NCBI GenBank assembly: GCA_003265685.1
Contig: QJOU01000019.1
Coordinates: 1 to 64,000 of the forward strand
Reading direction: 5' to 3'
DNA length: 64,000 nucleotides
From: Piscinibacter caeni
GTDB lineage: Bacteria; Pseudomonadota; Gammaproteobacteria; Burkholderiales; Burkholderiaceae_C
Both the position numbers and the translations under genes were made by a program. Below, in pieces: positions 1,989 to 13,744 of the stretch (position 1 is the stretch's first letter; every line of letters begins with the position of its first letter). Under the pieces are notes generated by a model, which saw only the letters and a list, made by a program, of their open reading frames with translations, searched no databases and had not been told where the DNA came from.

Positions 1989-2939
1989 CTACCCTGCCGG
2001 GCGCTCCTCTTTGCCTCGCGGCGCGGCGACGTAGACGTTGAAGGAATCGATGTCTGCAATGCACCGGGCCATCAGGTCGACGTACGCGCGCACCTTTCGA
2101 CCCATGTAGCGTTGACGCTGATAGGTGCAGTGCACCTTGCGTGGCACGGGGCGCCATCCTGGGAGGATCGGTACAAGCACGCCGCGGTTGACTTCCGGGC
2201 GCGCAAAGAAGTCGGGCATCAGCGCTACGCCCAGTCCGCCAACGCACAGTGTCTTCATCACCCAGTAGTCGTTGGTCGAAAGCGCCACCGAAGGCGAATA
2301 GGGGTGTCTTCCGGCGGATGAGTGGAGGTCGCACACCTCTTCGCTGTGCATCACGATGGCCTTGCAGCGATGCAGCTCGCCCGGGGATGCGGGCGCCGAT
2401 TCGCGCGCCAAGTAGCCCGGGCTCGCGAACACGCTATAGGTAAGCCGCCCCAGCAGCTTGGCAACCAGGTTGGGGCGGTCCGGCGGCGCCGAGCAGATGT
2501 AGCAGTCGACGTCGTCGATCGAAGGCGCTCCGCTGACTGTGGCGACGTTGAGCTCGCAACGCACATTCGGATGCTGTTGCAGGAAAAGATCCGTGACGCT
2601 GCAGACGAAGGTCGTCGCGAAGTGAACGTCGGAAAGCACCGACAACGTGCCCGACACGCCTTCGTCGATGTTGTGCAACAGCGTGCGCGCGGCCTCCAGC
2701 CGGCCGTGGACCTCGTCCAGCAGCGCCACCGAGTGTGCGTACAGCATGCGCCCCGACTCGGTGGGCTGCATCCGTCGGGCGCCGCGCGTCAGGAGCTGGC
2801 TCCCCATAGCGGCTTCGAGCTGGGAGATCTGGCGGCTGAGCGTGGCCTTCGAGATGCCCGTGCTGAGTTCCGCCGCGGTGAGGCTGCCCGCCCGAACGAC
2901 GGCAACGAACGATTCGATCAGTCGCACGTCACTCACCAT
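1989..2939 (-). CDS. LysR-family transcriptional regulator, likely controls the divergent demethylase operon
   Basis: The protein has 316 aa, the usual LysR length. An N-terminal winged helix-turn-helix (about residues 5-65, with the Ala-Glu-Leu-Ser...Ser-Arg-Gln-Ile-Ser-Gln-Leu-Glu pattern) is followed by a periplasmic-binding-protein-like effector domain (about 95-300). The ATG at 2939 is the first codon that gives a complete DNA-binding helix. The gene is divergent from the Tsx-like gene at 3108, with 168 bases between the starts. A perfect inverted repeat lies 15 bases from its own start (2955-2972), as expected for an autoregulated LysR activator. The effector is unknown; by context it would be a methylated purine or its product. 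GC content is visibly lower than in the flanking core genes. Confidence 0.85.
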   Translation of the reverse strand: MVSDVRLIESFVAVVRAGSLTAAELSTGISKATLSRQISQLEAAMGSQLLTRGARRMQPTESGRMLYAHSVALLDEVHGRLEAARTLLHNIDEGVSGTLSVLSDVHFATTFVCSVTDLFLQQHPNVRCELNVATVSGAPSIDDVDCYICSAPPDRPNLVAKLLGRLTYSVFASPGYLARESAPASPGELHRCKAIVMHSEEVCDLHSSAGRHPYSPSVALSTNDYWVMKTLCVGGLGVALMPDFFARPEVNRGVLVPILPGWRPVPRKVHCTYQRQRYMGRKVRAYVDLMARCIADIDSFNVYVAAPRGKEERPAG

Positions 2940-3107: not shown

Positions 3108-3932
3108 GTGAAGAACCCCAACTCATCCATTGCGGGGTACGCCGCGCGCTGCATCGCCGGGCTGTCGTTCTCGGTGGCCGCAACCATGACAGCGCAAGCG
3201 GCGCAGTGGAGCGACACCGAAATCCAGTTCCTGCACGGCTCAGGCTTCAACGACAACGGTACGTTCGGCGGGCCCAAGTTCAGCAAGGACATCATTACCT
3301 TGCAGCACGCGAGCGGCTATTCGCTGGGTCGCAACTTCTTCTTCGTCGACTTCGTCAAGTCCGACAGCAAGGATGGCAACTACGGCGAGATCTACGGCGA
3401 GTATTACCACACGCTGAGCCTGACGAAACTGCAGGGCACGGATTGGTCGAAGAACTTCGTGAAGGATGTCGGCCTGACCGCCGGCATCAACTACGGCGCG
3501 AAAAACAGCGCCTTCGGGGCGAATCCGCGAGTCCTGCTGGTCGGCCCGACCTTCGACCTGAACATTCCGGCTGCGGCGTTCTTCAACGTCGACGTGCTGG
3601 CGTACGCGGATCGCGGCATCTACAGCGGCTTCGGCGGTGGCGCCCTGTGCGGCGGACACAAGACCACCTGGCAAATCACGCCGGCGTGGAACTTCCCGTT
3701 CTCCGTCGGCCCGGCGAAGTTCACCTTCGAAGGCTTCATGGACGTGATCGGCAAGCATGGCAGCTGTGAACGGCAAGTCCTCACGCAGCCGCAGCTTCGG
3801 TGGGACGTCGGCAACCACTTCGGCCGGCCGGGCGCGGTGTTCCTGGGGCTCGAGTACCAGTATTGGAGGAACAAGTTCGGCGCCAAGCAGAGCGAGTCCT
3901 TTCCGCAGCTGCTGCTTGGCGTGAAGTTCTAG
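3108..3932 (+). CDS. Tsx-like nucleoside-specific outer-membrane channel
   Basis: The protein has 274 aa. The start is the GTG at 3108, which has AAGGAG 9 bases upstream. It gives an N-terminal signal peptide (hydrophobic core about residues 13-28, cleavage near Ala-Gln-Ala|Ala-Gln-Trp). The mature protein is rich in alternating aromatic/polar beta strands and ends in Phe (Leu-Gly-Val-Lys-Phe), the usual C-terminus of an outer-membrane barrel. Segments such as Trp-Ser-Asp-Thr-Glu-Ile-Gln and Asn-Phe-Phe-Phe-Val-Asp-Phe resemble the OmpK/Tsx nucleoside-channel family. It would let nucleosides or similar purines cross the outer membrane. It is the first gene of the operon, 34 bases before the BMP binding protein, which fits a shared uptake role. 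Confidence 0.75.
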   Translation: MKNPNSSIAGYAARCIAGLSFSVAATMTAQAAQWSDTEIQFLHGSGFNDNGTFGGPKFSKDIITLQHASGYSLGRNFFFVDFVKSDSKDGNYGEIYGEYYHTLSLTKLQGTDWSKNFVKDVGLTAGINYGAKNSAFGANPRVLLVGPTFDLNIPAAAFFNVDVLAYADRGIYSGFGGGALCGGHKTTWQITPAWNFPFSVGPAKFTFEGFMDVIGKHGSCERQVLTQPQLRWDVGNHFGRPGAVFLGLEYQYWRNKFGAKQSESFPQLLLGVKF

Positions 3933-3966
3933 TGTGCCCGTCATTCGACATCAACGAGGAGTATTC

Positions 3967-5052
3967 ATGATCCCGTCCAAGCGCAGCCTCATGCTGATTC
4001 TCGGATTGGCAGCGGCGTGTCCGTTCATCGTCTCGCCTGCACGCGCCGCCGAACCCCTGAAGGTGGGTTTCATCTATCTCGGCCCCGTCGGAGACACCGG
4101 CTGGACATACCAGCACGACCTCGGTCGCATCGCGCTGGAAAAGAATCTCGGCGCGAAAGTCGCCGTGCGCACCGTGCCCAACACCCAGGAGGGGCCCGAC
4201 TCCGAGCGTGTGGCACGCGAACTCTCCGCCGACGGCTACAAGGTCATCTTTGCCGCTTCATTTGGCTACATGAAGCCGGTGATGAACGTCGCCGCAGAGA
4301 ACCCGACGACGGCGTACCTGGTCGCCAGCGGCTACCTGACAGCCAAGAACTTCGCTGGCTACAACGCGAAGTGGCACGAGGGTGGTTATCTCGCCGGGAT
4401 CGTGGCGGGCAAGTCGACGAAGAGCGATTCGATCGGCTTCGTCGGACCGTTCAACGTGCCCGACGTGATGTGGTATCTCAACGCGTTCACGCTGGGCGCG
4501 CGCAGCGTCAATCCAAAGGTGACCGTGCGCACGATCTTCGTCAACTCCTGGTACGACCCACCACGCGAGACGGAAGCCGCCAACATACTGATGAACCAAG
4601 GGGTCGACACCCTCGCTCACTTCACCGACACGCCATCGGTAGCCATTGCGGCAGAAGCCCGCGGTGTGGGCGTCATCTCGTTCCACTCGGACATGCGGCG
4701 TTTTGCACCGAAGAACTACCTGACGGGCCTGACGCACCAATGGGGCGACTTCTACACGAAGGTCGTGCGCGAGGTCATGGCAGGGACGTGGAAGCCGGGG
4801 GTGTACATGGGCGGCGTCACCGACGGAGTGGTTCGACTCGCCCCGATGGGCCCACGCGTGCCGAGAGACGTCGTGGAACTCGTGCAGGCCAAGGAGCGGG
4901 ACATTGCGTCGGGCAAGCTGAACGTGTTCGCCGGCCCGATCAGGGACCAGAGCGGCGCCGTCCGCGTCGTGGCGGGCAGCGCGTACCCCGATGCCGACCT
5001 GGGCAAGATGGACTGGTACGTCGACGGCATCGTCGGCGGCTCGAGGAAGTAG
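3967..5052 (+). CDS. BMP/PnrA-family periplasmic substrate-binding protein (purine nucleoside-type)
   Basis: The protein has 361 aa from the ATG at 3967, which has GAGGAG 5 bases upstream. A signal peptide (about residues 1-29, ending Ala-Arg-Ala|Ala) is present without a lipobox cysteine, so the protein is soluble in the periplasm. The mature part begins with Lys-Val-Gly-Phe-Ile-Tyr-Leu-Gly-Pro-Val-Gly-Asp-Thr-Gly-Trp, the ligand-pocket strand of BMP-family (Med/PnrA) proteins. Known members bind purine nucleosides or nucleobases for ABC uptake. No ATPase or permease gene is nearby, so the partners must be encoded elsewhere. Together with the Tsx-like channel it suggests that the pathway's substrate is purine-related. 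That is inference; binding specificity cannot be read from sequence. Confidence 0.8.
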   Translation: MIPSKRSLMLILGLAAACPFIVSPARAAEPLKVGFIYLGPVGDTGWTYQHDLGRIALEKNLGAKVAVRTVPNTQEGPDSERVARELSADGYKVIFAASFGYMKPVMNVAAENPTTAYLVASGYLTAKNFAGYNAKWHEGGYLAGIVAGKSTKSDSIGFVGPFNVPDVMWYLNAFTLGARSVNPKVTVRTIFVNSWYDPPRETEAANILMNQGVDTLAHFTDTPSVAIAAEARGVGVISFHSDMRRFAPKNYLTGLTHQWGDFYTKVVREVMAGTWKPGVYMGGVTDGVVRLAPMGPRVPRDVVELVQAKERDIASGKLNVFAGPIRDQSGAVRVVAGSAYPDADLGKMDWYVDGIVGGSRK

Positions 5053-5056
5053 CGCC

Positions 5057-5713
5057 ATGAGTACCACGGCTTGTTGGCACCCGCTGGTGCGCAGCACCGA
5101 GCTGCGCGCGGGCCACGACATCGTCGCTGCGTGGGTCCAGGGTGCCGAGCTGGCACTGTGGCGCACGGCCGGCGGCGTCGCGCAAGTGTGGGAGAACCGT
5201 TGCCCGCATCGCAGCGTGCGCTTCACGCTGGGACAGGTCGACGGCGATCGGCTCACCTGCGCGTATCACGGATGGCAGTACGCAGCCGGCTCAGGGCAGT
5301 GCGCTGCCATCCCGGCGCACCCGTCGATGGCACCGCCGCGCAATGTCTGCGCGCGCACCTACCAAGCTGCCGAGGCCAGCGGCATGGTTTGGGTCCACCT
5401 GGGTGCGGATACGGACGAGTCTGCGCCGGCCGACGCAGTCCCTGCGGGCTGGCACGCCTGCCGCGAGCTCGCGATACGGGCGGGCTGCGACACAGCGCAC
5501 GCCTACCTCGCGACGCACGGCTGGCGCAAGACGTCAGCGGCCTGGGCGGGTGAGCTCGGCGGCGTTGCCGCTCGCGCGCTGCTTCTCGACGCGCAGCCGC
5601 AGCTGGTCGTGCTCCACCTGTGGGCTGACACGCCACCCGAAGGAGTGGCCCTGCGTCGCGTGCATGCCGCCGCGCGGCGCTTGCGCGGCGAGATTGAAGC
5701 GGCTGCGTTGTGA
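5057..5713 (+). CDS. Stand-alone Rieske [2Fe-2S] protein, equivalent to the N-terminal part of an NdmD-type reductase
   Basis: The protein has 218 aa and starts at the ATG 4 bases after the preceding stop. A Rieske domain spans about residues 7-120, with cluster ligands Cys49-X-His51 and Cys68-X2-His71 in the motifs Cys-Pro-His-Arg and Cys-Ala-Tyr-His-Gly-Trp. The remaining ~95 residues are a small extra domain, not the iron-binding catalytic domain of a ring-hydroxylating oxygenase. This resembles the N-terminal region of NdmD, the purine N-demethylase reductase that carries a Rieske domain fused to the reductase. Here the reductase half is a separate gene (6593-7561), with the oxygenase gene between them. 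Expected role: pass electrons from the reductase to the Rieske-less oxygenase. The assignment to the Ndm system rests on the whole gene set. Confidence 0.75.
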   Translation: MSTTACWHPLVRSTELRAGHDIVAAWVQGAELALWRTAGGVAQVWENRCPHRSVRFTLGQVDGDRLTCAYHGWQYAAGSGQCAAIPAHPSMAPPRNVCARTYQAAEASGMVWVHLGADTDESAPADAVPAGWHACRELAIRAGCDTAHAYLATHGWRKTSAAWAGELGGVAARALLLDAQPQLVVLHLWADTPPEGVALRRVHAAARRLRGEIEAAAL

Positions 5714-5727
5714 CGGGAGATTTGACA

Positions 5728-6588
5728 ATGGCCTTTAACACCGATGATCCCAACATGCTCGACGAATGGCTGACGGTGGGCCCCTTGAGCCTGCTGGCGG
5801 GCACGAGCGCGAGCCACCCCCGCACGACGCGACTACTCGGCGCCAACCTCGCCCTTTGGCTGGATGAGCACGGCAAGCCGCACGCACGAACGGACGAAGC
5901 CGAGCTTGTGATTCAGGCGCGCTACGACTACGCATGGGTGTGCCCAAGCGGGACGCCGCGACACCAGCTGTTCGCGTTCCCGGAGTACGAGCAAAGCGGG
6001 CGGCGCATCGTCGACTGCGGAGGCCTCGGCGTAGCCGTGTCCGGACTGCGCGTTGTCGAGAACTTCCTCGACATGGCGCACTTCCCGTTCGTACACACCG
6101 GCTACCTTGGCCGTGCTCCGCACACCGAAGTGGCCGACTACCGCGTGGAGACGTCCTCCGACGGCGAGCTGTGGGCCACGGAGTGCCGCTTCTGGCAACC
6201 ACAGTCGTCCGCGTCGTCGAGCCACGGGGACGATGTGCACTACCGCTACCGTGTGATGCACCCGATGACTGCGATGCTCTACAAGTCGTGCTTCACGCAC
6301 CCGCACGAGATGGACGCGATTGCGCTGTTCATCCAGCCGGTCGACGAGGAGCGAGTCATCGCGCATTGCCTGATGGCCTACTACGACGACGATTCGAGCC
6401 AGGCGGATTTGATCTCGTTCCAGCACACGATCTTCGGCCAGGACAAGCCGATCCTCGAGAACCACGTGCTCAAACGCATGCCACTGGAAGGGCGCGCGGA
6501 GACGCCCACACGCTGCGACGCCATGTCGGTCGCCTATCGCCGCTGGCTGAAGGCGCGTCACATGCGCTTCGGCGTGCTGCCCGCGTGA
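5728..6588 (+). CDS. Mononuclear iron oxygenase subunit lacking a Rieske cluster, NdmC-like N-demethylase
   Basis: The protein has 286 aa. The ATG at 5728 has GGGAG 8 bases upstream; a GTG at 5710 that overlaps the previous stop is an alternative start. Iron-site residues are Asn112, Asp115, His118 and His123 (Asn-Phe-Leu-Asp-Met-Ala-His-X4-His) and probably Asp239 in Gly-Gln-Asp-Lys. The spacing equals that of dicamba monooxygenase-type catalytic domains. The first ~95 residues still resemble the outer strands of a Rieske fold (Thr-Val-Gly-Pro-Leu-Ser; Leu-Ala-Leu-Trp-Leu-Asp; Tyr-Ala-Trp-Val-Cys-Pro-Ser). The CxH...CxxH cluster-binding insert is gone. NdmC, a methylxanthine N7-demethylase, has the same lack. 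Expected reaction: O2-dependent hydroxylation of an N-methyl group, releasing formaldehyde. The exact substrate is unknown. Confidence 0.75.
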   Translation: MAFNTDDPNMLDEWLTVGPLSLLAGTSASHPRTTRLLGANLALWLDEHGKPHARTDEAELVIQARYDYAWVCPSGTPRHQLFAFPEYEQSGRRIVDCGGLGVAVSGLRVVENFLDMAHFPFVHTGYLGRAPHTEVADYRVETSSDGELWATECRFWQPQSSASSSHGDDVHYRYRVMHPMTAMLYKSCFTHPHEMDAIALFIQPVDEERVIAHCLMAYYDDDSSQADLISFQHTIFGQDKPILENHVLKRMPLEGRAETPTRCDAMSVAYRRWLKARHMRFGVLPA

Positions 6589-6592
6589 TGCG

Positions 6593-7561
6593 ATGAAGAT
6601 GCAACCCGTGCGCGTGGACGCGAAGTGGCTGGAGGCGGAGGGCATCATGGCGTTCTCGCTGGCCGATCCCGAGGGTGCCGAACTGCCGCCGGCGACGCCT
6701 GGCGCTCACATCACGGTGCGCGTGGCAGCCTCAGGCCGGCCGCCGCTGCTGCGCACCTATTCGCTGTGCAACGGACCGGGCGAGCGAGACCGCTACGTGC
6801 TCGGCATCAAGCGCGAGCCAGCCTCGCGCGGCGGCTCCGCGGCGATGCATGAGGTCGTGCAAGTCGGCGACGTGCTGGAAATCAGCGCGCCGCAGAACCA
6901 CTTCCCCTTGTGCCCCGAAGCGACGTCGCACCTGCTGCTCGGCGCCGGCATCGGCATCACGCCACTGCTGGCGATGGCTCAGCACCTGCACGCCTGCGCC
7001 CAGCGCTTCGAGCTGCACTACTTCTGCCGAGGGCCGGAACACATCGCGTTTCGCGATCGGCTCGCGCCGGCTGAGGCGGCCGGCCGCGTGCACTTTCACG
7101 CCGGCTTGTCCGGGCTCGAGGTCGCGGAGTACCTGCGTTCGCTGATGACCCCCCCGCCCGAGGGGAGCCACGCCTACGCGTGCGGACCGGCACCCTTCAT
7201 GGAGGCCGTGAAGACGATCGGCCGTGCGTGGGGCGACGAGCGTCTGCATTTCGAGCATTTCCAAGCGCCGGCGCCTGCCCTGGCCGCGCAGGGCACGACG
7301 TTCGAGGTGAGGGCGGTGCGCAGCGGTGTGAGCTGCACGGTCGCTCCGAACGAGTCCATCGTTGCAGCACTCGGGCGCGTGGGGTGCGCGGTCGAAGTCT
7401 CCTGCGAGCAGGGTGTGTGCGGCACGTGCCTGACGCGCGTGCTCGGCGGAGTGCCGGATCACCAGGACGCCTACCTCACCGATGCGGAACGCGCGGCCAA
7501 CGACCAAATGCTGGTGTGCGTGGGACGCGCGTGCAGCCCCGTTCTCGAACTCGATCTCTGA
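6593..7561 (+). CDS. Flavin/plant-type [2Fe-2S] reductase, C-terminal half of an NdmD-type reductase
   Basis: The protein has 322 aa and starts 4 bases after the oxygenase stop. Domain order: FNR-type flavin domain (Arg-Thr-Tyr-Ser-Leu near residues 54-58), NAD-binding domain (Gly-Ala-Gly-Ile-Gly-Ile-Thr-Pro near 117-124; Cys-Gly-Pro-Ala-Pro near 197-201), and C-terminal plant-type ferredoxin domain with Cys271, Cys276, Cys279 and Cys309 (C-X4-C-X2-C-X29-C). This is the vanillate demethylase/phthalate dioxygenase reductase class. It would move electrons from NAD(P)H to the Rieske protein encoded at 5057. In NdmD these two parts are one polypeptide; here they are separate genes on either side of the oxygenase subunit. 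Confidence 0.85.
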   Translation: MKMQPVRVDAKWLEAEGIMAFSLADPEGAELPPATPGAHITVRVAASGRPPLLRTYSLCNGPGERDRYVLGIKREPASRGGSAAMHEVVQVGDVLEISAPQNHFPLCPEATSHLLLGAGIGITPLLAMAQHLHACAQRFELHYFCRGPEHIAFRDRLAPAEAAGRVHFHAGLSGLEVAEYLRSLMTPPPEGSHAYACGPAPFMEAVKTIGRAWGDERLHFEHFQAPAPALAAQGTTFEVRAVRSGVSCTVAPNESIVAALGRVGCAVEVSCEQGVCGTCLTRVLGGVPDHQDAYLTDAERAANDQMLVCVGRACSPVLELDL

Positions 7562-7567
7562 ACCACC

Positions 7568-8245
7568 ATGATCAAGCTATACGACTACGAACTCTCGGGC
7601 AACTGCTTCAAGGTGCGGCAACTCCTCGCCTGGCTCGGCGTGGAGTACGAGCGCGTTGCGGTCGACTTCTACCCAGGCAAGGAGCACAAGTCCGCGCGTT
7701 TCATCGACGAGATCAACCCGCTCGGCCAGATCCCGGTGATCGATGACAACGGCTTCATGCTGCGCGACGCACAGGCCATCATGGTCTACCTGGCCAGTCG
7801 CTACGACGCGTCGCGTCGCTGGTATCCCGACGATGCGGAACTGCGCGGGCAGATCACAGTCTGGCTAGCGACCGCCGACGAGATCACGCGCACCGCGTCC
7901 GCGGCCCGGTTGCACGATGCGCTGGGCTACCCGTTCGATGTCGAAGCTTGCCGCAATGGCGCGCGCGCGGTCTTCCGCGTGCTCGACGACCATCTTGCCG
8001 AGCGCGACAGCACCGGGTTCTCTTGGCTCGTGGGTGATCAACCCACCATCGCGGATCTGGCCTGCTTCCCGTACGCCGCGCTCGCCGGCGAAGGCGGCAT
8101 CGCCCTCGACGAGTTCCCCGCGCTGCGGCGCTGGATCTGGGACTTCCGCCACCTGCCGGGTTTCGTCGGCATGTCCGGCATCTTCGCCCCGGACGCCGCG
8201 CTGCGCGGCCCGAAGGTCATCCCCGTTGTGAAGACCATCGCATGA
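7568..8245 (+). CDS. Glutathione S-transferase-like protein, NdmE-like structural subunit
   Basis: The protein has 225 aa and lies 6 bases after the reductase. It has an N-terminal thioredoxin-fold GST domain (Tyr-Asp-Tyr-Glu-Leu-Ser-Gly-Asn-Cys-Phe-Lys-Val; Gly-Gln-Ile-Pro-Val-Ile; Asp-Ala-Gln-Ala-Ile) and an all-helical C-terminal domain (from about residue 90, with Pro-Thr-Ile-Ala-Asp-Leu-Ala). In the caffeine N7-demethylase complex, NdmE is a GST-like protein needed to hold NdmC and NdmD together, and the position of this gene in the same set suggests that role. A glutathione-linked enzyme role cannot be excluded, because two glutathione-dependent formaldehyde genes follow. The stop overlaps the frmA start (ATGA), which implies translational coupling. 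Confidence 0.75.
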   Translation: MIKLYDYELSGNCFKVRQLLAWLGVEYERVAVDFYPGKEHKSARFIDEINPLGQIPVIDDNGFMLRDAQAIMVYLASRYDASRRWYPDDAELRGQITVWLATADEITRTASAARLHDALGYPFDVEACRNGARAVFRVLDDHLAERDSTGFSWLVGDQPTIADLACFPYAALAGEGGIALDEFPALRRWIWDFRHLPGFVGMSGIFAPDAALRGPKVIPVVKTIA

Positions 8246-9348
8246 AGACCAAGGCCGCTGTCGCCTGGAAAGCCGGCGCACCTTTGACGATCGAGACCGT
8301 CGACCTGGAGGGACCGCGCGAAGGGGAGGTGCTGGTCGAGGTCAAGGCCACCGGCGTCTGCCACACGGATTACTACACGCTCTCGGGCTCCGATCCGGAG
8401 GGGCTGTTCCCGGCCATCCTGGGTCACGAGGGCGCGGGTGTGGTGCTCGAAGTCGGCAAGGGCGTGACGTGGCTGCGCCCGGGCGATCACGTGATCCCGC
8501 TGTACACGCCGGAATGCAGGCAGTGCAAGTTCTGCCTGTCACGCAAGACGAACCTGTGCCAGGCGATTCGTTCGACGCAAGGCCAGGGGTTGATGCCCGA
8601 CGGCAGTTCACGCTTCTCGATCGACGGCAAGCCGCTGCTGCACTACATGGGCACTTCGACCTTCGCGAACCACATCGTCGTGCCTGGCATCGCGCTGGCC
8701 AAGATCCGGCCCGACGCGCCGTTCGACAAGGTTTGCTACATCGGCTGCGGGGTGACAACCGGCGTCGGCGCCGTGGTGTTCACCGCGAAGGTCGAGGCGG
8801 GCGCCAACGTGGTGGTGTTCGGGTTGGGCGGCATCGGACTGAACGTGATCCAGGGCGCGAAGATGGTTGGGGCCGAGAAGATCATCGGCGTCGATCTCAA
8901 TCCGGCACGAGAGGCGATGGCGCGGAAGTTCGGCATGACGCACTTCCTCAACCCCAAGGAGCACGACAACATCGTTGACGCGATCGTGCAGCTCACCGAC
9001 GGGGGCGCCGACTACAGCTTCGAGTGCATCGGCAACACCAAGGTGATGCGCCAGGCGCTGGAGTGCACGCACAAGGGCTGGGGACGCAGCATCATCATCG
9101 GCGTGGCCGAGGCCGGTGCCGAGATCAGCACGCGGCCGTTCCAGCTGGTCACCGGGCGCAATTGGGAGGGCTCGGCGTTCGGCGGCGCGCGCGGCCGCAC
9201 GGACGTGCCGAAGATCGTCGACTGGTATATGGACGGCAAGCTCAACATCGACGACCTGATCACGCATGAGCTGTCGCTTGAGCAGATCAACGAAGGGTTC
9301 GATCTGATGAAGCGTGGCGAGTCGATCCGCTCGGTGGTCGTCTACTGA
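8242..9348 (+). CDS. frmA: S-(hydroxymethyl)glutathione dehydrogenase (class III alcohol dehydrogenase)
   Basis: This 368-aa zinc alcohol dehydrogenase oxidises S-hydroxymethylglutathione, the spontaneous adduct of formaldehyde and glutathione, to S-formylglutathione with NAD. Visible features: catalytic zinc ligands in Gly-Val-Cys-His-Thr-Asp (about 39-44) and Gly-His-Glu-Gly-Ala-Gly; four structural-zinc cysteines in the Glu-Cys-Arg-Gln-Cys-Lys-Phe-Cys stretch and the following Asn-Leu-Cys; and the Rossmann motif Gly-Leu-Gly-Gly-Ile-Gly. Length matches class III enzymes. The gene overlaps the GST-like gene by 4 bases and precedes frmB by 6 bases. Formaldehyde is the expected by-product of N-demethylation, so this enzyme links detoxification directly to the oxygenase. 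Confidence 0.93.
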   Translation: MKTKAAVAWKAGAPLTIETVDLEGPREGEVLVEVKATGVCHTDYYTLSGSDPEGLFPAILGHEGAGVVLEVGKGVTWLRPGDHVIPLYTPECRQCKFCLSRKTNLCQAIRSTQGQGLMPDGSSRFSIDGKPLLHYMGTSTFANHIVVPGIALAKIRPDAPFDKVCYIGCGVTTGVGAVVFTAKVEAGANVVVFGLGGIGLNVIQGAKMVGAEKIIGVDLNPAREAMARKFGMTHFLNPKEHDNIVDAIVQLTDGGADYSFECIGNTKVMRQALECTHKGWGRSIIIGVAEAGAEISTRPFQLVTGRNWEGSAFGGARGRTDVPKIVDWYMDGKLNIDDLITHELSLEQINEGFDLMKRGESIRSVVVY

Positions 9349-9354
9349 CTGACC

Positions 9355-10224
9355 ATGCAGAGCATCGAGCTCGTCAGCGAGCATGCCTGCCATGGCGGCT
9401 TCCAGGCGTTCTACCGGCACGACTCGCGTGTCATCGGTCTGCCCATGCGCTTCTCGGTCTTCAGGCCCCCGCAGGCGAAGCCCGGCAGTGGCCCAGCCCT
9501 TATCTACCTTGCCGGGCTCACCTGCACCGAGGAGACCTTTGCGATGAAGGCGGGCGCCCAGCGTATCGCCGCAGAGCTGGGGATGCTGCTGATCTCGCCG
9601 GATACGAGCCCCAGGGACACGGGGATCAAGGACGAAGCGGCGGACTGGGAGTTCGGCAGCGGCGCCGGCTTTTACGTCAATGCCACGCGGGAGCCATGGA
9701 CGAAGTTCTTCCGCATGGAGGACTACATCGTCCATGAATTGCGCGAGATTGTGATCAACTACTTCCACGTTGCCCCGCGGCGGCTTGGCATCTTCGGGCA
9801 CTCGATGGGTGGACACGGTGCGCTGATCCTGGCTCTGCGACACCAGGACGTGTTCCGCTCCGTGTCCGCGCTCGCTCCGATCGCGGCGCCCAGTCAGTGC
9901 GCGTGGGGACGCAAGGCGTTTGCAGGCTACTTCGGCGACGACGAGGAGACGTGGCGGGCTCACGATGCCAGCGCGTTGATGCGGCGCTCGCGTCGGCCGT
10001 TTCCGGAAGGCATCCTGGTCGACCAGGGCCTGGGGGACAAGTTCCTGCAAAGTCAGTTGCTCCTCGAAGAGTTCGAAGAGGCGTGCAAGGTCGCCGATCA
10101 GCCGCTCGAATTGAGGCGCCATGCCGGCTACGACCACGGCTATTACTTCGTCAGCTCCTTTGTGCAGGATCACCTGCGCTTCCACGCCGAAAGGCTTTGC
10201 GCTTCCTGTTCGCCACATGGGTGA
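9355..10224 (+). CDS. frmB: S-formylglutathione hydrolase
   Basis: This 289-aa serine hydrolase of the esterase D family converts S-formylglutathione to formate and glutathione, completing the formaldehyde oxidation started by FrmA. The nucleophile elbow Gly-His-Ser-Met-Gly-Gly-His-Gly-Ala sits near residue 147. The family segments Leu-Ala-Gly-Leu-Thr-Cys-Thr-Glu-Glu (about 50-60), Asp-Thr-Ser-Pro-Arg and a C-terminal Tyr-Asp-His-Gly-Tyr-Tyr (catalytic His) are all present. It is the last gene of the operon. No clear intrinsic terminator follows it in the next 340 bases. Confidence 0.93.
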   Translation: MQSIELVSEHACHGGFQAFYRHDSRVIGLPMRFSVFRPPQAKPGSGPALIYLAGLTCTEETFAMKAGAQRIAAELGMLLISPDTSPRDTGIKDEAADWEFGSGAGFYVNATREPWTKFFRMEDYIVHELREIVINYFHVAPRRLGIFGHSMGGHGALILALRHQDVFRSVSALAPIAAPSQCAWGRKAFAGYFGDDEETWRAHDASALMRRSRRPFPEGILVDQGLGDKFLQSQLLLEEFEEACKVADQPLELRRHAGYDHGYYFVSSFVQDHLRFHAERLCASCSPHG

Positions 10225-11942: not shown

Positions 11943-12023
11943 TGTGTTTCCAGATGCGATCACTAAAGTTCCGCCGATCCGGTGCACACCGCTGCGCCAC
12001 CGACCCCCAGCGAGGAACCCCGC

Positions 12024-13172
12024 ATGCTCGAACAGCAGTATCACGACGCCAACCTGCAGCCGGCCGACAGCGCCGCGCCCCACGTGGCCGGGTTTCCGGT
12101 GGTGCGGGCCATCGACGTCGGCTTCGGCCACGTCAAGCTCAGCCTGCGCGACGGCAACGACGTGAAGTTCACCAGCTTCCCGTCGATGGCCATCCCGGCC
12201 GACGGCAGCGCGGTGCGCACGCTGGGCACGCGCAAGCGCGACACCTTCGACGTGCCGGTGCGCGGCGCGCTCTACGAGGTGGGCCGCGACGTGGCGCTGG
12301 CGCATTCGGGCGGCAACTTCGGCCGCGACGTGACCGACGAGTTCTACAAGGGCGCCATCTACGAGGCCCTGACGCGCGGCGCGCTGCGCTACATGGCCGA
12401 GGCCGGCGACGGCACGATCGACATCCTGGTGCTCGGCCTGCCGGTCAACCAGTACAACGACGCCAAGCGGCGCGACTACCTGCGCAGCACCTTCGAGGGC
12501 AGCATCGAGGTGGGCGACGGCAAGTCGGTGTTCGTCAAGCGCGTGCTGGTGCAGGCCCAGCCGGTGGGCGGCTATGCGGCCATCGACGAGCACCTGGACG
12601 AGCTGAACGCGGTGATCGCCGCCACCGGCGGCGCGCTGCGCACGCTGGACAGCGGCGAGGCGCTGGAAGACCTGGCCGTGCTGATGGTCGACCCCGGCGA
12701 GCACACGCTCGACTGGCTGCTGGTGCAGCAGGGCACGATCAACCCGCGCGCCAGCGGTGCCGCCTCCGACGCCGGCCGCCACCGCGTGGTGCGTGCGGTG
12801 CAGGAGGCGCTGAGCCACCAGATCGGCCGCCCGCTCGGCCCCTCGGTGATGCCGCGCATCAACGACGCGCTGCGCCTGGGCGCGCCGGTCAAGCTGTCCG
12901 GCGTGGCACACCCGCTGCAGAGCTACGAGCCGGTGGTGCTGAGCGTGATCGACGACTCGATCAACCGCATGGTCGACGGCCTGCGCGACGCGCACGAGAT
13001 CATCGACCTGATCGTGCTGGTGGGCGGCCACCCCGAGCACTACCGCGACCTGCTCTCCAAGCGCTTCCCGGCCATCCCGGTGTTCGTGATGCCCGACTCG
13101 ATGTACGCCAACGTGCGCGGCTTCCAGATGATCGGCGAGGCGGAGGCGGCGACGTCCGAGGTGCGGCACTGA
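12024..13172 (+). CDS. ParM/StbA-like actin-family ATPase (PRTRC protein D-like)
   Basis: The protein has 382 aa from the ATG at 12024, with GAGGAA upstream. The actin-fold ATP-binding motifs are in order: phosphate 1 (Ile-Asp-Val-Gly-Phe-Gly-His-Val-Lys, residues 30-38), phosphate 2 (Val-Asp-Pro-Gly-Glu-His-Thr-Leu-Asp-Trp, about 230-240) and the adenosine motif (Leu-Val-Gly-Gly-His-Pro-Glu-His-Tyr, near 335). This is closest in pattern to plasmid-segregation ParM/Alp proteins and to protein D of PRTRC cassettes. Such proteins polymerise with ATP to move DNA. No other PRTRC gene, replication gene or conjugation gene is nearby and the flanks look chromosomal. It is followed after 17 bases by a partner gene. 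Confidence 0.8.
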   Translation: MLEQQYHDANLQPADSAAPHVAGFPVVRAIDVGFGHVKLSLRDGNDVKFTSFPSMAIPADGSAVRTLGTRKRDTFDVPVRGALYEVGRDVALAHSGGNFGRDVTDEFYKGAIYEALTRGALRYMAEAGDGTIDILVLGLPVNQYNDAKRRDYLRSTFEGSIEVGDGKSVFVKRVLVQAQPVGGYAAIDEHLDELNAVIAATGGALRTLDSGEALEDLAVLMVDPGEHTLDWLLVQQGTINPRASGAASDAGRHRVVRAVQEALSHQIGRPLGPSVMPRINDALRLGAPVKLSGVAHPLQSYEPVVLSVIDDSINRMVDGLRDAHEIIDLIVLVGGHPEHYRDLLSKRFPAIPVFVMPDSMYANVRGFQMIGEAEAATSEVRH

Positions 13173-13189: not shown

Positions 13190-13744
13190 ATGGCCACCTT
13201 CGAGCTGCTGGTCGAGATCGACAGCGACGTCCACCCGGAGCTGTACGCGGTGCTCGCGGCGGTCGGCCGGGAGTCCCTGCGCCCCGAGCGGCTGCGCCAG
13301 CTCGCCGGCGGCGGCCTGATCTGGGAACACCTGCGCGCCCAGCCGCGCCTGGATGCGGCCGCGCAGCCCGCGCTGGCGGCCGCGGCGCGCCAGGGCGACC
13401 GGGTCGCCGCGGCGCGCGCCGCGGTGCGTTCGGTGGCGCAGTCGGTGGCGCAATCGGTGGCGCAGTCGGCCGCCGACTCGCTGCTGGCGGCCGCCGCGCT
13501 GCCCGAGCCCGAACCTCCGCCGGTGCTGCAGGACGTGGTGGAGGTGGCGCCGCGCAGCGCAGCGCCCAAGCGCGCTGCCGCCAAGCCGGCCGCCCCGGTT
13601 GCCGAGGCCCCCGTCGCCGCGCCGGCGCCGCCTGCGGCGGCCGAGGCCGAGCCGCCGCTGCCCGATTTCGCGGCGCCGAAGAAACCCGGGCCGCGCTCGC
13701 GCCTGCTGCTGATGAAGGAGCGCGGGCTGTTCAAGAACAGCTGA
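13190..13744 (+). CDS. Uncharacterised Ala/Pro-rich protein paired with the ParM-like actin
   Basis: The protein has 184 aa and no recognised domain. About 60 residues with a compact, mixed composition (Phe-Glu-Leu-Leu-Val-Glu-Ile-Asp near the start) are followed by an alanine-rich helix that contains three Ser-Val-Ala-Gln repeats (about residues 81-92). A Pro/Ala linker then leads to a basic tail, Gly-Pro-Arg-Ser-Arg-Leu-Leu-Leu-Met-Lys-Glu-Arg. The tail could contact DNA or the actin filament. Its position directly after the actin gene is that of the adaptor (ParR-like) gene in segregation operons. That function is inferred only from position; there is no visible ribbon-helix-helix. Confidence 0.55.
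   Translation: MATFELLVEIDSDVHPELYAVLAAVGRESLRPERLRQLAGGGLIWEHLRAQPRLDAAAQPALAAAARQGDRVAAARAAVRSVAQSVAQSVAQSAADSLLAAAALPEPEPPPVLQDVVEVAPRSAAPKRAAAKPAAPVAEAPVAAPAPPAAAEAEPPLPDFAAPKKPGPRSRLLLMKERGLFKNS
13430..13469 (+). repeat. In-frame 12-bp tandem repeat, 3.3 copies
   Basis: The unit TCGGTGGCGCAG (one variant base) is repeated from 13430 to 13469 and encodes Ser-Val-Ala-Gln three times, inside the protein at 13190-13744. Being a multiple of three, copy-number change would lengthen or shorten the helix without shifting frame. Confidence 0.85.

Follow-up and report, generated by a model that had tools for sequence, protein, structure and literature searches.

An eight-gene operon of Piscinibacter caeni as a candidate methylpurine N-demethylation system with separate Rieske and oxygenase subunits

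Genes of the operon

We analysed the first 64,000 nucleotides of contig QJOU01000019.1 of Piscinibacter caeni (assembly GCA_003265685.1; hereafter the window), where positions 3108-10224 had been read, from the sequence alone, as a purine N-demethylation operon with a split NdmCDE-type oxygenase. The eight tightly spaced co-directional genes of this sequence-only reading are all present and intact on the + strand, with spacing of −4 to 34 nt, as a check of positions and stop codons confirmed (Table 1). They encode a porin, a BMP binding protein, a Rieske protein (R), a Rieske-less oxygenase (OX), a reductase (RED), a protein like glutathione S-transferase (GST), FrmA and FrmB, and the OX gene sits between the R and RED genes. 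Family models and motifs agree with the identities proposed for the seven genes after the porin, and FrmA and FrmB, which together specify glutathione-dependent formaldehyde oxidation, both score above their family-model cut-offs. Direct reading finds the motif CxH-x16-CxxH in R and none in OX, the motif DxxHxxxxH in OX and none in R, and a four-cysteine [2Fe-2S] motif in RED.

Table 1. Features of the operon and its divergent neighbour in the window.
Feature	Position	Strand	Evidence
LysR regulator, divergent from operon	1989..2939	-	PF03466 and PF00126
Tsx-family outer-membrane porin	3108..3932	+	GTG start; family-level profile comparison
PnrA-like BMP binding protein	3967..5052	+	PF02608, 160.1 bits
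R, Rieske [2Fe-2S] subunit; residues ~118-218 predicted to form a reduced oxygenase catalytic domain without iron	5057..5713	+	PF00355, 66.8 bits
OX, Rieske-less mononuclear iron oxygenase, NdmC-like	5728..6588	+	PF19112, 74.4 bits; no Rieske match
RED, flavin/NADH reductase with plant-type [2Fe-2S] domain, phthalate dioxygenase reductase type	6593..7561	+	PF00111, 37.7 bits; PF00175, 26 bits
NdmE-like GST	7568..8245	+	GST_N/GST_C; GST_N_3, 44.6 bits
FrmA, S-(hydroxymethyl)glutathione dehydrogenase	8242..9348	+	TIGR02818, 615.7 bits (cut-off 543.95)
FrmB, S-formylglutathione hydrolase	9355..10224	+	TIGR02821, 421.4 bits (cut-off 281.7)

The earlier label of a nucleoside-type porin is valid at the family level, because a profile of the porin's family (6 sequences) aligns with Pseudomonas putida OmpK (hhalign 99.7%, E 6e-27), a protein that matches PF03502 Channel_Tsx. 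The porin alone had no Pfam match, even at E 5, and no NCBIfam match, and a PDB profile search gave weak matches to fatty-acid-binding proteins alone (best E 0.023) and no Tsx identity. The BMP protein may serve purine or nucleoside uptake; a permease and ATPase for it are not among the eight genes. LysR is likely the regulator of the operon. No riboswitch was found by Rfam at the gathering threshold across the window.

Complementary subunits and the comparison with NdmCDE

Among solved structures, OX matches by sequence only SxtT/GxtA and NdmA/NdmB. OX has the mononuclear iron motif and lacks both a Rieske cluster and a PF00355 match. Predicted structures of R and OX share the SxtT/GxtA and NdmA/NdmB fold over their whole lengths, but in those enzymes both metal centres lie on one chain and here the Rieske and catalytic domains are on separate proteins. 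The models suggest that R and OX both derive from a single Rieske-oxygenase subunit by duplication, each having lost what the other kept.

Homology links R to the N-terminus of NdmD-type proteins, OX to the NdmC type and GST to the NdmE type. NdmCDE is the N7-demethylase complex of Pseudomonas putida CBB5 and acts last in caffeine breakdown, converting 7-methylxanthine to xanthine. In two reports on this caffeine degrader (PMC4408171, PMC8055839), NdmCDE likewise has a Rieske-less oxygenase, a Rieske domain on another protein, a GST-like partner and a flavin/[2Fe-2S] reductase, with frmA and frmB in the known caffeine cluster. One of them presents NdmCDE as the earliest reported example of a Rieske domain detached from its oxygenase and joined to the reductase (PMC4408171), and a paper of 2026 terms the complex unsolved (PMC13237722). 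In our comparisons the NdmC of CBB5 was represented by stand-ins from Klebsiella pneumoniae (locus L028) and P. putida KF715 (locus L027). Unlike NdmCDE, in which the Rieske domain, flavin reductase and [2Fe-2S] domain share one chain, the window has Rieske protein and reductase as two genes, its OX lies outside the clade of the fusions, and its genome has no NdmA-like gene.

RED scored 214.8 bits against 2pia and 56.4 bits against the NdmD ferredoxin domain (6icm_D), for which the ferredoxin part of the L028 fusion reached 116.3 bits. Its identity is 42% to the C-terminal half of an NdmD-like fusion from S. meliloti, 35% to the P. putida KF715 counterpart and 35% to a VanB-type reductase. GST shows 39-59% identity to seven GSTs that adjoin NdmC/NdmD-like genes; the residue pair of what we take to be the glutathione-binding motif varies among the eight GSTs compared. 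The notion of GST as a trap for formaldehyde in the form of a glutathione adduct was set aside.

Relatives, gene company and phylogeny

The genome contigs scanned encode at least 529 relatives of OX, of which we kept the best 80 loci; among plasmid records, 259 had a tblastn match to OX, 220 over at least 80% of OX, and some of these matches are complete oxygenases. The 80 loci show three layouts: 24 have separate R and OX and are labelled here Burkholderiales-type (L044-L066 and L080), 14 are alphaproteobacterial with separate R and OX, and 38 carry an R-reductase fusion. R is not in view in four. The Burkholderiales-type set includes contigs filed as Planctomycetota (L051) or just as Proteobacteria (L063, L080). 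A LysR-like gene, so labelled by likeness to that of the window, is present in 14 of 24 loci compared. A search for the same gene order in other genomes found that the set recurs across genera, and it is therefore not a chance assembly. Close to home OX is patchy: it was found in 13 of 399 genomes of the family, its own included (E 1e-50), at least one of which has a fused partner (L158), and in two of the eight genomes of the genus.

Genes for formaldehyde oxidation follow the layouts. FrmA occurs in 17/24 Burkholderiales-type unfused loci, 8/38 fused loci, 0/14 alphaproteobacterial unfused loci and 0/4 loci without R; the corresponding counts for FrmB are 15/24, 5/38, 0/14 and 0/4. Four of the seven Burkholderiales-type loci without FrmA have less than 1.7 kb of sequence after OX. 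The other unfused sets, of Rhizobium, Shinella and further genomes, most of them alphaproteobacterial, resemble the window in their separate ~215-aa Rieske protein, Rieske-less oxygenase, GST and BMP protein; they differ in that the annotated regions contain neither a reductase nor Frm genes, and they belong to another clade. Their amidohydrolase is closest to 8-oxoguanine deaminase, below the cut-off, and eight of the 14 alphaproteobacterial loci have such an amidohydrolase or a guanine deaminase in view.

NdmA/NdmB-like genes are present in only five of the 80 loci, of three kinds (45% identity over 250 residues). In Piscinibacter locus L053 the order is R-OX-RED-GST, NdmB-like, a TIM-barrel-like gene, FrmA, FrmB, porin and NdmA-like, with 489.1 bits to solved NdmB and 559.8 bits to solved NdmA. 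Azohydromonas locus L058 has the same gene set in another order plus urate oxidase, a genome of the same family (G483) has the four genes with NdmA, NdmB and FrmB in the operon and FrmA not in it, and Zoogloea locus L062 has an NdmB-like gene, FrmA and FrmB beside the four genes. The adjacency of the four genes to NdmA/NdmB-like and Frm genes supports a methylxanthine role for the clade of Piscinibacter L053, Azohydromonas and G483. Genome G483 has three matches to OX (L149, L150, L151), one of them in the fuller operon with NdmA, NdmB, FrmB and a porin. The OX and NdmB-like genes of the Planctomycetota-filed contig L051 are identical to those of L053, and L062 and L063 have identical OX; misbinning is possible in both cases. 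L025 (8977-10788) and comparable loci of Mesorhizobium/Aminobacter encode a tandem pair of differing Rieske-less oxygenases alongside a single NdmD-like fusion and a single GST, which both oxygenases share; the two might act on separate methyl positions.

GST is present in 70 of the 76 loci with R; of the six loci that lack it, all except L095 lie at the end of a contig. R and GST abut within ~3 nt even where OX is encoded on the opposite strand or over 7 kb away, as it is in 11 alphaproteobacterial unfused loci out of 14. This linkage of R to GST apart from OX points to the Rieske subunit as the likely binding partner of the NdmE-like protein, and since it ties GST to that subunit the role of GST becomes testable. 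These split loci (L084, L085, L096, L099, L101, L102, L111, L112, L116, L119, L122) have no FrmA or FrmB in view, and their enzymes may be hydroxylases rather than demethylases.

An oxygenase tree of 81 rows was rooted on five full-length oxygenases; excluded from it were 24 loci that by eye looked nearly duplicate, the long branch L103_8000 and all other full-length oxygenases (the larger row set has n = 130). The window groups with Variovorax (9 rows, 99/87) within the Burkholderiales-type unfused clade (18 rows, 99/98), which with Herminiimonas makes 19 rows (95/66). The sister of this unfused clade (98/86) has two parts. One is a second unfused clade, largely of Alphaproteobacteria (17 rows, 100/98), in which three rows come from the same class as the window and one has no R in view; the other is the fusion clade (96/83), whose 40 rows comprise 36 with a fusion and four with R not in view. 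OX lies outside the clade accompanied by NdmD fusions and is therefore a sister type, not a strict NdmC orthologue. The proposed comparison with NdmC and NdmD by alignment and tree thus bore out homology and did not place OX inside the fusion clade. A single layout change suffices on this tree, which makes the fusion derived as long as the root is correct; apparently it arose once, from unfused ancestors, and the unfused layout looks ancestral. On the rooted oxygenase tree the description "split NdmCDE" accordingly runs the wrong way, with NdmD as the later fusion. Forcing all 35 unfused rows together was rejected by the approximately unbiased test (p 0.0004), for a group named after the tree had been seen. 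A Rieske-domain tree (71 rows, without the same 24 near-duplicate loci) also gives the fusion as one clade (98).

In a smaller oxygenase tree of 33 rows picked by hand, all sampled Rieske-less oxygenases form one clade (100/100), with the Burkholderiales type apart from the other Rieske-less oxygenases (99/95 versus 82/89). Together with SxtT-type and NdmA/NdmB-like enzymes this clade is separated (100/100) from the genome's best VanA_C match and two oxygenases of contig C11. The sequence-only reading had named a placement of OX in a non-purine clade as decisive against it; no such placement was found relative to these three proteins, which are stand-ins and not proven VanA, and no tree included a proven O-demethylase. 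The C3 protein of the VanA_C comparison had no NCBIfam match at 1e-30.

Proposed function and alternatives

The tree, the structures matched by sequence and the NdmA/NdmB-like neighbours in relatives uphold the NdmCDE-like enzyme type and the link to purines that had been proposed. The operon is probably a stand-alone methylpurine N-demethylation system, likeliest of the N7 type and with 7-methylxanthine as first choice of substrate, coupled to formaldehyde disposal and with an ancestral-looking layout of the NdmCDE kind; for the substrate we argue from gene company and homology. The porin and BMP protein would help to import the purine. RED would pass electrons from NADH to the Rieske cluster of R, and R to the mononuclear iron of OX through the conserved aspartate that precedes the first histidine, as fold and motifs suggest, in the way that electrons pass between neighbouring subunits of ordinary Rieske oxygenases. 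OX would then activate O2 and hydroxylate the N-methyl group, from which formaldehyde would leave, and GST would hold R in place, as proposed for NdmE. FrmA and FrmB, assigned by family models, would oxidize formaldehyde to formate with glutathione. The complex itself, like the electron path and the role of GST, is part of what we infer.

The demethylated purine could enter the genome's own purine locus on contig C16, which encodes a guanine deaminase (TIGR02967, 480.1 bits) and both subunits of xanthine dehydrogenase (TIGR02963, 672.8 bits; TIGR02965, 1279 bits), all above cut-off, along with XdhC, Xan_ur_permease, two BMP proteins, ABC permeases and an ATPase, and a porin of the operon porin's family. 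C16 could provide both the permease that the operon lacks and the later steps of the pathway. The earlier statement that there is no xanthine dehydrogenase holds for the first 20 kb of the window, the stretch scanned, and fails for the genome. Inside the C16 locus (L037 10267-11289, -) lies a complete SxtT/NdmA-like Rieske oxygenase related to OX, and similar matches, covering the catalytic part of OX at 45-48%, occur in 8/8 genomes of the genus. The absence of an ndmA/ndmB-like gene, also noted earlier, was borne out genome-wide (99.33% complete) with an NdmA-like query, for which the best match had 138.9 bits and 34% identity; NdmB was not searched genome-wide by itself, and NdmA and NdmB homologues are ~54% alike.

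Several observations weigh against methylxanthine demethylation by an NdmCDE-like complex. Neither the window nor the flanks of 12 Variovorax loci contain an NdmA/NdmB-like gene, and therefore the direct operon evidence for methylxanthines comes from a neighbouring sub-clade. The Variovorax loci also show no RED. L052, L060 and L064 lack FrmA despite ~10 kb of flank, and because they and the 14 alphaproteobacterial loci have none, part of the family may have a role other than demethylation. The idea that RED is orthologous to the reductase half of NdmD was tried and dropped, since the tree is unresolved and another reductase of the genome, encoded on contig C3, mixes in. For the C-terminus of R as a catalytic remnant, the sequence-only test was weak (hhalign 31% over 24 columns); the case is carried by the structural test, in which the domain was modelled as part of R. 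Residues 123-131 of OX, beside the second histidine, are poorly modelled. The Rieske-domain tree leaves the order of unfused and fused clades unsettled, and the 33-row tree settles it in part only, with the remainder unresolved.

The same architecture might instead act on RNA-derived 7-methylguanine or 7-methylguanosine, with guanine passed to guanine deaminase and xanthine dehydrogenase. We consider this unlikely. The nucleoside-type porin and PnrA-like binding protein of the operon, the lack of an NdmA-like gene in the genome, the above-cut-off enzymes and purine permease of C16 and the guanine deaminase adjoining related systems, for example Mesorhizobium L032, speak for it; the NdmA/NdmB-like genes beside the four genes in relatives point to xanthines, and none of the eight operon genes encodes a nucleosidase. 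Similarly improbable, in our judgement, is a narrower form in which the clade of the window and Variovorax, where no NdmA/NdmB was seen, would carry out stand-alone salvage of RNA-derived 7-methylguanine or its nucleoside by a Rieske oxygenase with its metal centres on two complementarily degenerate subunit copies and a GST that belongs to the Rieske copy. Among the matches listed from the open-licence PMC literature we recognised no paper on an unfused system or on demethylation of 7-methylguanine by bacteria, which is weak evidence of absence.

Much less probable again is a purine hydroxylase like the HpxD-type Rieske enzymes, with FrmA and FrmB serving another source of formaldehyde. An annotated HpxD does occur among the distant plasmid relatives (25.7-26.9% identity), and many family members adjoin deaminases or xanthine dehydrogenase without Frm genes; the frequency of FrmA in Burkholderiales-type and fused loci, and the NdmA/NdmB-like neighbours in relatives, argue for demethylation. 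An O-demethylase, or an N-demethylase for a non-purine aromatic, is the least likely of all, given the solved structures that OX matches, its grouping with NdmC-type proteins and the purine-like transport genes.

In the favoured reading, R and OX would be complementary degenerate copies of one subunit and the NdmD of caffeine degraders a later fusion of an R with a reductase. The unfused system is a likely precursor of NdmCDE, in which a heteromeric Rieske oxygenase would have formed by duplication and complementary loss and been fused to a reductase later. This would account for the segment that separates the Rieske part of NdmD from its reductase part, and the unfused operon offers four individual proteins with which a complex of the NdmCDE kind could be studied structurally.

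In one Variovorax locus (L045 11518-14493), FrmA and FrmB are separated by an alpha/beta hydrolase gene, and OX has no reductase gene beside it. Elsewhere in the window, a DUF899 protein (1039-1809, +; 315.6 bits) is encoded near the LysR gene, and downstream of the operon an actin-like protein with an ALP_N domain (11982-13172, +; 90.6 bits) is followed by a small gene (13190-13744, +). This pair resembles a plasmid segregation module; possibly the contig represents a plasmid or chromid.

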